Source: Pycnococcus provasolii
Lineage: Eukaryota; Chlorophyta; Pseudoscourfieldiophyceae; Pseudoscourfieldiales; Pycnococcaceae
Direction of reading: 5' to 3'
NCBI GenBank assembly: GCA_938743325.2
Contig: OW568876.1
Location: 372,001-436,000 of the forward strand
Length of the DNA: 64,000 nt
The first letter of the stretch is position 1. Every line of letters starts with the position of its first letter. The position numbers and the translations under genes were made by a program. Under the pieces are notes generated by a model. It searched no databases and was not told the DNA's origin. It saw only the letters and a program-made list of their open reading frames with translations. Of the stretch, positions 14,356 to 21,595 are shown one piece after another.

Positions 14356-15177
14356 TCAAAGCAGGCACTCTGGAATGTCGACAAGCGTGGCTGCCATCAA
14401 TTTCATGATTTCGAAGCGCGTGACCATGCCCACGAGTGTCTTACCATCCTTGCGGCTCACCACGGGAAGGCGCACGATGCCGTTGTTGACCATATCAGCC
14501 GCAGCCTCACTGATGGTGGCATCCTCCGTGACGACAATCGCTGGGCTGGTCATCGCCTCGTCGACAAGCCCCTCCAAGAAGGAGGCTGCCTCTCGCGCGG
14601 ATGCGGGCGCGTCGCTCAGGCAGCTGTTGAAGCGATCCTCCGAAAGCAGGTCGGCAATGTCATCCTCGTCCACGGAACCCACCATGATGTCCTCCGACCA
14701 CTTGGACATGAGGTTGTCCGAGTTTCGAGAGGAGCCAGAGCTGTCCTTAAGCTCGCGCCAGAGGACATCTGTTAGTGAGACGACACCAACCACCTCGTTT
14801 GTGGTTGGATCGACGACCGGCAAGCCGCTTGTGTCTTCTCCCAAGAAGGTGACAAGAGCACTGCGCAGAGGCGTGGACGGCGTGATGGGTGGATCGGGTG
14901 CTGGCTGCATGAGCTGGGAGACGAATAGCTTTGGTATTTTCGACGACGACGAAGACCACTGCTCGTTGTCGAATCGTTCCTCGAAGTCGGTTAGGAGCGG
15001 CGTTCCATCGAGGCCGGTTGGCGTATTTGTTGAGGAGGAGGAGGAGGAGGAGGAGGAGGAGGAGGACGCGACAAACCACCACCACCGCGAGGAACGAGAA
15101 CGATGACATGATGAGTGGCGAGAACGCCGAGCAGGAGTTACTGACGCCGCCGACGCTGACGACGCTGACTTCATCAT
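14356..15177 (-). CDS. CBS-domain pair protein with Ser-rich N-terminus
   Basis: A 273-residue protein with two CBS domains, the adenosyl-ligand-sensing module. CBS1 spans ~residues 85-140 (FVSQLMQPAPDPPITPSTPL, GLPVVDPTTNEVVGVVSLTDVL). CBS2 spans ~205-265 (AMTSPAIVVTEDATISEAAA, RLPVVSRKDGKTLVGMVTRFE). The N-terminal 50 residues are basic and carry a 13-Ser run, consistent with an organelle transit peptide, possibly plastid as for plant CBSX proteins. The first ~30 codons are duplicated at 21034-21160 in the inverted repeat. It is convergent with the DHA kinase gene. Two adjacent ATGs at 15177 fix the start. Confidence 0.75.
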   Translation of the reverse strand: MMKSASSASAASVTPARRSRHSSCHRSRSSRWWWFVASSSSSSSSSSSSTNTPTGLDGTPLLTDFEERFDNEQWSSSSSKIPKLFVSQLMQPAPDPPITPSTPLRSALVTFLGEDTSGLPVVDPTTNEVVGVVSLTDVLWRELKDSSGSSRNSDNLMSKWSEDIMVGSVDEDDIADLLSEDRFNSCLSDAPASAREAASFLEGLVDEAMTSPAIVVTEDATISEAAADMVNNGIVRLPVVSRKDGKTLVGMVTRFEIMKLMAATLVDIPECLL

Positions 15178-15349
15178 CTTGCGTGATCACGTTGTGGTGG
15201 AACAAGCAAGCGTCAGTGTGTTATCGCCCGAAGTGAGCTCACTCAGCGTACGTGCGAGAAGGAGGGAGGGTCCCGAGACATTCCTTGTCACCACGCTGTA
15301 CAACATCTACAGATTACCCTCGGGATACCGGTTTATCACGGGTCAAGGC

Positions 15350-15508
15350 TACAAAAGGTCAGCGGTTCAACTCCGCTATTCTCCAGTTTTCAGCTGCAGG
15401 GGAATTGTAAGTTCTCCCTTCATCATTCTTTCAATCTCTTTGGCTGTAGACTCGTGCTGACGATTTCAACCAATTTCAGAACTCAGTGGTAGAGTGTTTG
15501 TTTTGCAT
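15350..15508 (+). tRNA. Circularly permuted tRNA-Ala(TGC) gene with an intron in its 5' half
   Basis: The 3' half comes first: positions 38-73 at 15350-15385, with anticodon-stem ACAAA, T-arm AGCGG/TTCAACT/CCGCT, acceptor ATTCTCC and discriminator A. A 13-nt spacer follows, then the 5' half: GGGGAAT plus T8 at 15399-15406, a 73-bp intron, then A9 onward at 15480 with D-arm ACTC/GAGT, anticodon stem TTTGT and loop TTTGCAT (anticodon at 15504-15506). Assembled, every stem pairs fully, U33 and A37 are present, and the acceptor has G3.U70, the alanine identity element. A run of ten T at 15511 directly follows the 5' half, as expected for a Pol III terminator. GGTTCAACTCC serves as B box. Read in normal order there is no tRNA here. 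The sequence shows the structure; expression is inferred. Confidence 0.88.
15407..15479 (+). other. GT-AG intron inside the tRNA 5' half (between positions 8 and 9)
   Basis: It starts GTAAGTTC, has GTGCTGACG 19-27 bp before its end, and ends ATTTCAG. Removing it restores an acceptor stem that pairs 7/7 with the 3' half, plus T8-A9. In the second copy (20731-20808) the ends and the CTGAC box are conserved while the interior differs. The signals resemble a U2-type spliceosomal intron, although an ectopic splicing-endonuclease intron is the alternative. Confidence 0.75.
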
Positions 15509-15510
15509 AC

Positions 15511-15520
15511 TTTTTTTTTT
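15511..15520 (+). terminator. Pol III terminator of the permuted tRNA-Ala gene, copy 1
   Basis: Ten consecutive T two bases after the last tRNA 5'-half nucleotide. Confidence 0.75.
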
Positions 15521-15919
15521 GCTGGTGCCTGCGGATAAATGTGATCCACCCGCGGCCGCCGGCGTCCACTGTGCGGCCGCCGGGCCGAGAAAAGAATAGA
15601 CGATGAACCACGAACACACGCACGTGCTCTGACGTGCACGCCGGAGGAGGAGGAGACGTACAACATTGCTTACAAATAGTCACCAATAGCGCACGAACAT
15701 ACCCCAACTGCAAAATGCACACCACCACCACGTCGTCACCTCACACTCCTATGCAAGTCGCTGGTGGTCGTGCTCACCGGACAAAGTGGACATATCGTCA
15801 CGCTGAGCAAGTAAGTACGTGGAAAGGAGGAGTGGGAGATAGATTATGACGGATCTCAATCAATGGAAAGAGCAACGATTTATAACACTGTAACATACAG
15901 CACTCTCTCTCTCTCTCTT

Positions 15920-17008
15920 CTACGCCGCCTCCTTCTCCCAAAGTCCGTCGTGCGCGGCTGCCATGCCCTTGTACACCCTTTGCGAGGGCATGGCTGCGGT
16001 GCGGTGACTGCCGAACGGTTGCCACGCCTCCACAAGCTGCAAATCACCAGTCGCAGCCATTTCGATGTGGCGGCGCAAGCTCACGGCATTCACACGAGCT
16101 GGCGACCACGTCTCACTGCTATCGGTGTTCTCCATGGCCAACGGGAAGACAGCTTTCGAAGCGACATCGAACACCACCGCGGCTGGGACATCGTCCTCGT
16201 TGACGCCAAACGCAGACGCAAGACTTTCCGGCGCCTCGCTACGATCGCCGCAGCAAAGAATGAGTGCAAGTCCGCGCACGTGGCGTGCAGCTTCGACGAG
16301 ATCAGAAGCAAGAGGATGCGACTTGTCGCACACCTTGCTCTTGTCGAAGATCAGTGCCGCGAGGCGTTGTTCACCACCCAGATTGGCGCGAATGAATTCC
16401 TGCCACGCGTTGGAATCCAAGAAGGGAATCATAGGCGGCACGAGTGCGAGCGTGAGAAACTCGCGCACACCCTCTGTGGTGATGGTGTCGTCGGCGAGAC
16501 GGCTAATATACGTTCCCGAGTCTCCACCAGACTTCTCGATGGACGCCACGGCAGGTGCGGTGACTTGGTACTCGGGAATCGTGCAGTCTTCGTCGTCAGC
16601 TTCCTCGTCACACAGCAGCACGGCAATGGGCAGTGGTTGAGTGCTGTCGCCGGAAGTCGTCACGGGGACGTGTGCACCTTCGATGCCGTCAAAAAACGCT
16701 TGGTGTGCCTTTGAGTTGCGACGCAGAGCTGCTACGATGACCACGGGCGCCGTATGATCGTCCACGTACTGCTTGAACGCTTTGGGATTTTCGTAGAACG
16801 TGAGTGACTCGGCTGAGTCCGCGAAATCTTTGACGACGTGCGTGCGTCGCTTTCCAGGTAGAGGGAGTGTTGTTCCCTTGTTGTTCGCTGACTGGTCATC
16901 CACAACTGGGCATCCTCCTTCTCCTTGTTTAGAGATATCGCACGACTGCGCAAGGATGGCAGGAAGAGACGCTGCAAGCACGAGAAGAGTCACCAAGACC
17001 GAAGACAT
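15920..17008 (-). CDS. Secreted/ER PDI-like thioredoxin-fold protein without CxxC
   Basis: A 362-residue protein. Residues 1-21 (MSSVLVTLLVLAASLPAILA) form a clear signal peptide. The rest resembles the non-catalytic b and b' thioredoxin folds of protein disulfide isomerases: FYENPKAFKQYVDDHTAPVVIVAA, a YQVTAPAVASI segment, and LDSNAWQEFIRANLGGEQRLAALIF, but there is no CGHC or other CxxC active site and no KDEL-like end. A role as an ER-lumen chaperone-like or redox-inactive PDI relative is inferred. The ATG at 17008 is chosen because nothing upstream in frame is an ATG. The last third of the gene is duplicated at 20035-20271. It is divergent from the DOMON gene with a telomere-like tract between them. 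Confidence 0.6.
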   Translation of the reverse strand: MSSVLVTLLVLAASLPAILAQSCDISKQGEGGCPVVDDQSANNKGTTLPLPGKRRTHVVKDFADSAESLTFYENPKAFKQYVDDHTAPVVIVAALRRNSKAHQAFFDGIEGAHVPVTTSGDSTQPLPIAVLLCDEEADDEDCTIPEYQVTAPAVASIEKSGGDSGTYISRLADDTITTEGVREFLTLALVPPMIPFLDSNAWQEFIRANLGGEQRLAALIFDKSKVCDKSHPLASDLVEAARHVRGLALILCCGDRSEAPESLASAFGVNEDDVPAAVVFDVASKAVFPLAMENTDSSETWSPARVNAVSLRRHIEMAATGDLQLVEAWQPFGSHRTAAMPSQRVYKGMAAAHDGLWEKEAA

Positions 17009-20034: not shown

Positions 20035-20271
20035 AGGCGCCGGAAAGTCTTGCGTCTACATTTGGCGTCAACGACGACGATGTCCCAGCCAGCTCGTGTG
20101 AATGCCGTGAGCTTGCGCCGCCACATCGAAATGGCTGCGACTGGTGATTTGCAGCTTGTGGAGGCGTGGCAACCGTTCGGCAGTCACCGCACCGCAGCCA
20201 TGCCCTCGCAAAGGGTGTACAAGGGCATGGCAGCCGCGCACGACGGACTTTGGGAGAAGGAGGCGGCGTAG
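20035..20271 (+). pseudogene. Truncated 3' fragment of the PDI-like gene
   Basis: It encodes APESLASTFGVNDDDVPA and, after an internal deletion of roughly 75 bp relative to the complete gene that shifts the frame, the same C-terminus (LQLVEAWQPFGS... ending WEKEAA). It has no promoter or 5' part and follows the DOMON gene stop by about 100 bp. Confidence 0.8.
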
Positions 20272-20689
20272 AAGAGAGAGAGAGAGTACTGTATGGTAAA
20301 GACTTACAGTGTTATAAATCGTTTGCTTTTTCCATTGATTGAGATCCGTCATAATCTATCTCCCACTCCTCCTTTCCACGTACGTACTAACTTGCTCAGC
20401 GCGACGATATGTCCACTTTGTCCGGTGAGCACGACCACCAGCGACTTGCATAGGAGTGTGAGGCGACGACGTGGTGGTGGTGTGCATTTTGCAGTTGGGG
20501 ACTTGGGGTATGTTCGTGCGCTATTGGTGACTATTTGTAAGCAATGTTGTACGTCTCCTCCTCCTCCGGCGTGCACGTCAGAGCACGTGCGTGTGTTCGT
20601 GGTTCATCGTCTATTCTTTTCTCGGCCCGGCGGCCGCACAGTGGACGCCGACGGCCGCGGGTGGATCACATTTATCCGCAGGCACCAGC

Positions 20690-20699
20690 AAAAAAAAAA
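20690..20699 (-). terminator. Pol III terminator of the permuted tRNA-Ala gene, copy 2
   Basis: Ten T on the minus strand, in the same position relative to the tRNA as in copy 1. Confidence 0.75.
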
Positions 20700-20701
20700 G
20701 T

Positions 20702-20865
20702 ATGCAAAACAAACACTCTACCACTGAGTTCTGAAATTATTTTTTTTTCGTCAGCACGAGTATAATTATAGTCTGAGAGACCGAAGGTATGTTGAAGGGA
20801 GAACTTACAATTCCCCTGCAGCTGAAAACTGGAGAATAGCGGAGTTGAACCGCTGACCTTTTGTA
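20702..20865 (-). tRNA. Permuted tRNA-Ala(TGC) gene, second copy
   Basis: Same architecture as at 15350. The 3' half (positions 38-73) is at 20865-20830, a 13-nt spacer follows, GGGGAATT is at 20816-20809, a 78-bp intron at 20808-20731, and the rest of the 5' half at 20730-20702 with anticodon at 20706-20704. All tRNA bases are identical to copy 1, including G3.U70, so both copies could be functional. Confidence 0.87.
20731..20808 (-). other. GT-AG intron in the second permuted tRNA copy
   Basis: 78 bp. It starts GTAAGTTCTCCCTTCA as in copy 1, keeps GTGCTGACG near the 3' end and ends AATTTCAG, but its interior (about 35 bp) does not match copy 1. Selective conservation of ends and branch box supports it being spliced. 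Confidence 0.75.
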
Positions 20866-21033
20866 GCCTTGACCCGTGATAAACCGGTATCCCGAGGGTA
20901 ATCTGTAGATGTTGTACAGCGTGGTGACAAGGAATGTCTCGGGACCCTCCCTCCTTCTCGCACGTACGCTGAGTGAGCTCACTTCGGGCGATAACACACG
21001 CTTGCTTGTTCCACCACAACGTGATCACGCACG

Positions 21034-21160
21034 ATGAAGTCAGCGTCGTCAGCGTCGGCGGCGTCAGCGGCGGCGTCTTATACTACTACTCCTCGGCGGT
21101 GGCGGTCAGTAACTCCTGCTCGGCGTTCTCGCCACTCATCATGTCATCGTTCTCGTTCCT
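21034..21160 (+). pseudogene. Truncated 5' fragment of the CBS-domain gene
   Basis: It encodes MKSASSASAAS and then PARRSRHSSCHRSRS as in the complete gene, separated by a ~40-bp insertion, and stops matching at 21160. No CBS domain follows. Confidence 0.8.
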
Positions 21161-21595
21161 TGCAGCAGTGGCACCCCGCCCGGAGTCCCGTTTTTTACTT
21201 CTCCATTGTAACTAGACTCCACACTTTTCCTCCACCATTGTACTCCGTTGTAGCCTCGTAGGTACCGGGTACGTCCTCGTAGTCCTCAACATGAAATGCC
21301 GTCACACACCGCTACTAGCCCACCAGGCAGTCCCCCAGACACACAGTCTCCCTGTCGATGGGATCCCGGAAATCTCGTTACAGCTCCCCAACGGCTCCCT
21401 TCGACCATCCGGGCAAAGCAGGCATTGAGGGGAGAAAAGGTCGAAGAAACCCGAATAAAATCCATTTAAGTCCCCTGAGCAGGTCGGGTTCCGCCCGCCT
21501 GCCCGGGCCTGCTTCACATACAAGTATACTACGCGCCATGTCGCTGGCGCCGGCGCCGCAGCCGCCGCCGCCGCCACGAGGAAGGGGAAGGCCTC
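21161..21595. other. Intergenic region beyond the duplication breakpoint
   Basis: About 430 bp, GC-moderate, with no start-to-stop frame that looks coding and no repeat of the arms. Confidence 0.4.

Follow-up and report, generated by a model that had tools for sequence, protein, structure and literature searches.

Probable spliceosomal introns, some of them introners, in permuted nuclear tRNA genes of Pycnococcus provasolii

By which machinery is an intron with mRNA-type signals removed from a tRNA gene whose two halves stand in reverse order? The question is raised by a permuted tRNA-Ala(UGC) gene in a stretch of 64,000 nucleotides (the window), which lies on contig C16 of a genome of 32.3 Mb and 46 contigs that encodes eukaryotic proteins. 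Known tRNA introns fall into three classes, endonuclease, group I and group II. An initial annotation of the locus had offered two readings, namely a Pol III transcript spliced by the spliceosome and an endonuclease intron that has come to resemble a spliceosomal one. In our opinion, the locus is probably a working permuted nuclear tRNA-Ala(UGC) gene with a spliceosomal intron between positions 8 and 9 (8/9), and the class of genes to which it belongs would have been invaded by introns, some of them introners. Introners, found in Micromonas and other algae, are short near-identical spliceosomal introns that occur in many genes and extend from splice site to splice site; to our knowledge, they have been described in protein genes.

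The gene, here copy A, consists of the following parts.

15350 to 15385, forward strand: 3' half of tRNA-Ala(UGC), positions 38–73, located by rejoining and by the match to the model R2 described below
15386 to 15398, forward strand: 13-nt spacer, which separates the 3' end of the tRNA from its 5' end
15399 to 15406, forward strand: first exon of the 5' half, GGGGAATT, acceptor strand 1–7 and U8
15407 to 15479, forward strand: 73-nt GT-AG intron (GTAAGT...CAG) at 8/9
15457 to 15461, forward strand: branch-point-like box CTGAC in this intron, its A 20 nt from the 3' splice site
15480 to 15507, forward strand: second exon of the 5' half, positions 9–37, with anticodon TGC
15511 to 15520, forward strand: run of ten T resembling a Pol III terminator, after TAC downstream of the gene

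After excision of the intron and rejoining of the halves, ARAGORN calls tRNA-Ala(tgc), every stem pairs, and G3.U70, U8, U33, the TGC anticodon and A37 are present. The same program reported no tRNA in the window or in the genomic-order stretch of the gene, and Rfam at the gathering score gave none in the 64 kb. For independent recognition, nine plastid, mitochondrial and non-permuted nuclear tRNAs, none of them Ala, were rewritten in permuted order and used to build a permuted-tRNA model (R2); tRNA-Ala(UGC) was left out because a first model, R1, had included that gene and was circular in this respect. Over the 64 kb, with E up to 10, R2 matches two places only, copy A (37.2 bits, E 1.6e-10) and a second copy, B (36.8 bits, E 2.2e-10). 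Chance origin of the permuted gene was rejected on the basis of this independent model (E about 2e-10). Thus, the order of 3' half, 13-nt spacer and 5' half claimed in the initial annotation is confirmed by rejoining, by ARAGORN and by R2, as is the splitting of the 5' half after U8 by 73 nt with GTAAGT, CTGAC and CAG; its statement that the arms pair only once this segment is removed and the halves are rejoined agrees with the recognition of the rejoined form, and not of the genomic order, by ARAGORN.

When single segments were deleted from copy A, 36 of the 333 deletions were still accepted by ARAGORN, and therefore the intron boundaries are not fixed by this program alone. Just one of these 36 deletions has both GT at its start and AG at its end, namely the 73-nt intron of the initial annotation. 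In RNA folding, the T arm and acceptor stem form in the spliced precursor and the T arm only in the unspliced one; a full cloverleaf was not obtained by folding the tRNA-Ala(UGC) precursor.

Copy B is inverted with respect to copy A, about 5 kb away, and lies in the other arm of an inverted repeat.

20703 to 20865, reverse strand: copy B, permuted tRNA-Ala(UGC) gene, its tRNA identical to that of copy A (R2 match)
20731 to 20808, reverse strand: 78-nt intron of copy B, with splice sites and CTGAC kept and the interior diverged
15079 to 16236, forward strand: left arm of the inverted repeat, with copy A; matched stretches 15079–16103 and 16181–16236
20035 to 21171, reverse strand: right arm of the inverted repeat, with copy B

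The tRNA exons of the two copies are identical. Their introns differ at 16 of 73 aligned sites, with 5 gap columns, and share the start with GTAAGT, ACTCGTGCTGACG and AATTTCAG; the arms outside the intron (aligned over 15079–16103) differ at 11 of 943 sites, with 72 gap columns. Such divergence with conserved ends and box is the pattern to be expected if the signals of the intron are under constraint. Gene conversion is expected to even out both the intron interior and the arms, and the two differ in this respect (16/73 against 11/943). Inverted pairs a few kilobases apart were also observed for several other nuclear tRNA genes, on contigs C3, C7, C9, C15, C18 and C26.

Further permuted genes were located by two A-box patterns and a T-arm pattern, and many of them were confirmed by the permuted models. 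At least 20 distinct permuted tRNAs were rejoined by hand: Ala (TGC, AGC, CGC), Arg (ACG, CCT, TCT), Lys (CTT, TTT), Val (AAC, CAC, TAC), Thr (AGT, TGT), Phe (GAA), Cys (GCA), Gly (TCC), Ile (TAT), Gln (CTG), Glu (TTC) and a Met-like gene (CAT) on C9. The counts below refer either to these 20 genes or to 21 rows, in which Ala(UGC) is counted twice; the inverted partners of other genes are left out of both. ARAGORN recognises 20 of the 21 rejoined sequences (16/16 in a first batch, 4/5 in a second), and Val(AAC) and Gly(TCC) give clean cloverleaves. The exception is tRNA-Ile(TAT), which by inspection has a large D loop and one mismatch in the T stem; the C9 gene is called Met(CAT) only with a U31-U39 mismatch.

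Introns are present in 11 of the 20 permuted genes. There are 26 distinct ones, copy B of Ala(TGC) excluded, at 16 tRNA positions and with one to five per gene.

Ala TGC: intron at 8/9
Ala AGC: introns at 8/9, 25/26, 31/32, 47/48 and 69/70
Ala CGC: introns at 31/32, 47/48 and 64/65
Arg ACG: introns at 26/27, 44/45, 47/48 and 61/62
Arg TCT: intron at 28/29
Lys CTT: introns at 8/9, 33/34 and 67/68, the third of 77 nt
Phe: introns at 6/7, 23/24, 47/48 and 61/62
Cys: intron at 8/9
Thr AGT: intron at 30/31
Ile: intron at 6/7
Gln CTG: introns at 32/33 and 69/70

All 26 introns carry signals of the spliceosomal type, namely GT-AG ends, a 5' consensus and a properly spaced branch box, represented in the window intron by GTAAGT, CTGAC and CAG. 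Their lengths are 69–80 nt. Intron limits were set by hand from tRNA structure and GT-AG, so that the GT-AG ends of 26/26 introns are partly built into the result; similarly, GTAAGT-like starts helped to spot the introns, and the G at +5 in 26/26 is therefore not fully independent. The openings are GTAAGT (11), GTACGT (7), GTAAGA (2), GTGAGT (2), GTATGT (2), GTACGA (1) and GTGCGA (1), and position –3 is C in 23 introns and T in 3. The branch box and the length played no part in setting the limits. A CTNAY motif with its A 18–26 nt from the 3' end occurs in 26/26 introns, against 3.6 on average and at most 10 in 2000 shuffles of the intron interiors. In tRNA-Arg(ACG), in the region of C7:702024, an apparent exon of 3 nt, GGT (positions 45–47), lies between two GT-AG introns.

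Some of these introns have relatives outside tRNA genes. A DNA search of the whole genome with the 73-nt intron that tRNA-Ala(CGC) carries at 64/65 gave 40 listed places, the query itself included, of which 32 were full length (1–73). Two of the relatives lie in other tRNA genes, tRNA-Ile(UAU) at 6/7 and tRNA-Arg(UCU) at 28/29, and the three introns, at three different tRNA positions, are 83–96% identical in pairs. Further copies were read at 8 of the 40 listed places. Exact removal of the intron leaves one frame open across 400 nt in 6 of these 8 copies, and unspliced, all eight have stops in every frame; by inspection, one of the remaining two meets an apparent further intron and the other a stop near the gene end. 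An open frame is also found in 43% of random 400-nt stretches of the window, and therefore Pfam domains that span the junction are the stronger support. Such a domain crosses the splice junction in 4 of the 6 open copies (dynein AAA_9 in two paralogues, dynein DHC_N2 and FAD_binding_4); in the other two no Pfam domain was found across it. Thus, members of the Ala(CGC) intron family appear to behave as mRNA introns in protein genes such as those of dynein heavy chains, and they are near-identical full-length introns at unrelated sites, as introners are. A second, smaller family unites the introns of Lys at 8/9 and Phe at 6/7.

The window's own intron (15407–15479) gave no listed relative in the genome, the copy B intron also not being listed, and so neither the likeness to introners nor the occurrence in mRNA genes extends to it. 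Three introns read in CCT genes start with GTACG(A/T) and, at 244, 272 and 340 nt, are longer than the tRNA introns; the GTACG opening is common to them and to 8 of the 26 tRNA introns. No clear intron was seen in the HSP70 genes examined. In the window, a frame test for de novo mRNA introns gave no excess over control hexamers, and the count of strong intron-like patterns was uninformative, with 5 on the two strands, both tRNA introns among them, as compared with 8 and 4 on the reversed strands. In viral contigs, no exact match to the introner tail or to the tRNA-Ala exon was found.

The best reading, as judged from the sequence, is that spliceosomal introns, some of them mobile (introners), invaded permuted Pol III tRNA genes. 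Its main rival is that the window intron is an ectopic bulge-helix-bulge intron, as in Cyanidioschyzon merolae, cut by the tRNA endonuclease and merely resembling a spliceosomal one. In the bulge-helix-bulge register, exon bases –6 to –3 pair with intron bases –6 to –3. The window intron has all four pairs of this central helix in both copies, positions 3–6 pairing with intron –6 to –3, and the catalytic domain of the tRNA endonuclease is encoded at two loci; intron-bearing permuted tRNAs of that type are, moreover, known (PMC3978253). For this gene, the full helix thus counts in favour of the rival. The full helix occurs, however, in only 1 of the 26 distinct introns, the window's own, and random re-pairing of exons and introns over 23 rows gave 0.9 full helices on average against the 2 observed, which are those of copies A and B. 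By inspection, there is no outer helix around the window intron. The rival also leaves the uniform consensus of GT-AG, G at +5 and CTNAY unexplained, and the sequence of a sister tRNA intron seems to act in protein genes as an ordinary mRNA intron. The full helix is more frequent at the permutation junction, 37/38 (6/21), than at the introns (1/26); 4 pairs form at this junction in 6 of 21 rows, 3 in 4, 2 in 7 and 1 in 4, and the window gene has 4/4 central pairs there. As a general explanation, endonuclease introns were rejected, 25 of the 26 introns having failed the register test.

Of the two readings in the initial annotation, the spliceosomal one is thus favoured by the consensus in 26/26 introns and by the copies in mRNA genes, and the endonuclease look-alike loses ground for the class with its single full helix; for the window gene alone, whose intron has the 4/4 helix, the latter is a possible reading, and we consider it improbable. 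Spliceosomal splicing is strongly supported for the gene class and likely for the window gene, for which the support comes from the consensus and from the other genes, since its own intron has a full helix and no relative.

The transcripts would probably be made by Pol III. In 21/21 rows, the 110 nt next to the 5' half contain a run of at least six T. Upstream boxes are found as well, and in the window they occupy the following stretch.

15285 to 15329, forward strand: upstream stretch with TTGTCACCA and GATACC boxes, common to several permuted tRNA genes and of putative promoter function

The motif GATACC lies upstream of 9 of the 20 permuted genes, against 0.7 in shuffles, and TGTCAC boxes, counted without a control, also occur upstream of such genes. 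These boxes may form an external Pol III promoter. We infer Pol III transcription from the T-runs in the 21 rows together with the upstream boxes, the internal boxes being swapped in order and often split. GATACC, e.g., at 15324 of the window, is often followed by (G/T)GTTC, which resembles an external B box. GC frequently comes after the terminal T-run, possibly as a fixed terminator context.

A related possibility, that the spliceosome acts and the precursors are Pol II transcripts, would agree with the position of the TGTCAC and GATACC boxes upstream, outside the gene, and with the U2 snRNA gene, which is present in the genome as the same kind of inverted pair (C6:154029 and C6:158553). Against it stands the T-run after the 5' half in 21/21 rows, as expected of Pol III termination, and we regard this variant as marginally less probable than the endonuclease intron.

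The conventional nuclear tRNA genes were sought with the Rfam tRNA model RF00005, which gave 27 matches over the cut-off in the whole genome, among the best 63 of 587 candidates scored. Of these, 24 sit on two contigs of 24,277 and 80,243 bases, taken as organelles. The three nuclear matches (within the same best 63 of 587 candidates) are tRNA-Tyr, once, and tRNA-Trp, twice, all of conventional gene order and with anticodon-loop introns at 37/38 that have no GT-AG ends. A conventional nuclear tRNA-Ala, the UGC isoacceptor raised by the initial annotation included, was not found with RF00005 among the best 63 of 587 candidates. The least probable explanation, decayed relics with working tRNAs supplied by missed ordinary genes or by import, could draw on the fact that the search scored the best 63 of 587 candidates, but is opposed by Tyr and Trp (twice) as the only nuclear matches at the cut-off within that number, by recognition of 20/21 rejoined sequences as tRNAs with a T-run in 21/21 rows, and by the Ala genes, of which TGC, AGC and CGC are all permuted and intron-bearing, so that the relic envisaged in the initial annotation is weakened, the exons forming intact tRNAs.

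On the preferred reading, spliceosomal introns in permuted tRNA genes, both the spliceosome and the tRNA endonuclease would be needed. Components of the two are encoded in the genome, namely the U2 snRNA gene and the two loci with the endonuclease catalytic domain. The primary transcript of the window gene would contain, in order, the 3' half, the spacer, the first exon of the 5' half, the intron, the second exon and the T-run, and would presumably be made by Pol III from an upstream promoter to the T-run. The spliceosome would then excise the 73-nt intron by means of GTAAGT, the CTGAC branch site and CAG, a step suggested by the consensus of the 26 introns and by the introns shared with mRNA genes. 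As in the known pathway of permuted tRNAs, the tRNA-splicing endonuclease would cut the product, and the ends would be joined at 37/38 to give a circle, from which RNase P and tRNase Z would take off the spacer, and CCA would be added. Ten or more other permuted tRNA genes, with one to five introns each, would use the same two-machine route, and at least one intron family would have spread as an introner, with insertions in tRNA genes as well as in protein genes. A Pol III transcript has no cap and no poly(A) and is an unusual substrate of the spliceosome. If the reading is correct, such transcripts undergo as many as five rounds of spliceosomal splicing, in one case around an exon of 3 nt.

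Seen across the genome, introners have probably colonised nuclear tRNA genes, mostly permuted ones, so that 11 of the 22 nuclear tRNA kinds found would need the spliceosome and then circularisation by the endonuclease; this broader statement is held with slightly less confidence than that on the window gene. The finding is thus larger than the window and concerns a class of genes. If true, spliceosomal tRNA introns would be a fourth kind of tRNA intron, the supply of tRNAs would depend on the spliceosome, and Pol III transcripts would be its routine substrates. Introners in genes that hardly tolerate intron retention would also provide a stringent natural test of introner splicing. In such a genome, nearly all nuclear tRNAs can escape a search with a standard tRNA model.

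Several known systems are comparable in part. Introners of the Micromonas type are known from protein genes, whereas here one intron family is present in protein and tRNA genes alike. The U6 snRNA gene of Schizosaccharomyces pombe has an mRNA-type intron in a Pol III transcript; this is a spliced Pol III transcript such as that proposed here, but from a single snRNA gene and not from permuted tRNA genes. The introns of tRNA-Tyr and tRNA-Trp at 37/38 provide a contrast within the same genome, with conventional gene order and without GT-AG ends.

Soma (2014; PMC3978253) tabulated 34 permuted tRNA genes, 7 of them with an intron, one per gene, and the abstract terms these introns bulge-helix-bulge mediated. 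Like those genes, which come from Cyanidioschyzon, Ostreococcus, Micromonas and the Bigelowiella nucleomorph, the genes described above have the 3' half first, a short spacer, commonly a 37/38 junction, a T-run and, in some cases, an intron. They differ from the set listed there (7/34, one endonuclease intron each) in that 11/20 genes have one to five GT-AG introns. According to its Table 1, permuted tRNA-Ser(TGA) of Ostreococcus lucimarinus has a 56-nt intron at 27/28 without a central helix (PMC3978253). It is similar to the present genes in that the host is a green alga, the permutation is of type II and the intron is non-canonical and without this helix; compared by table entry, it is a possible overlooked precedent. 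In the green alga Auxenochlorella, an incomplete tRNAscan-SE set had its gaps filled by permuted genes, as here; the passage in question (PMC12636532) mentions no intron, whereas 11 of 20 permuted genes have introns in the present case. Among open-licence papers, no title or abstract was found that reports spliceosomal introns in tRNA genes. Permuted tRNAs, spliceosomal introns and introners are each known, and it is their combination that appears to be new.

Two further observations concern the permuted genes themselves. A further permuted gene, in the region of C7:498910, may be His-like; it has several GTAAGT segments, was rejoined in part and lies outside the 20 genes counted. In addition, 10 of the 20 rejoined tRNAs, belonging to Val (three), Arg (three), Lys (two), Ile and the C9 gene, end with U72-A73, which gives G1-U72 as their first pair.
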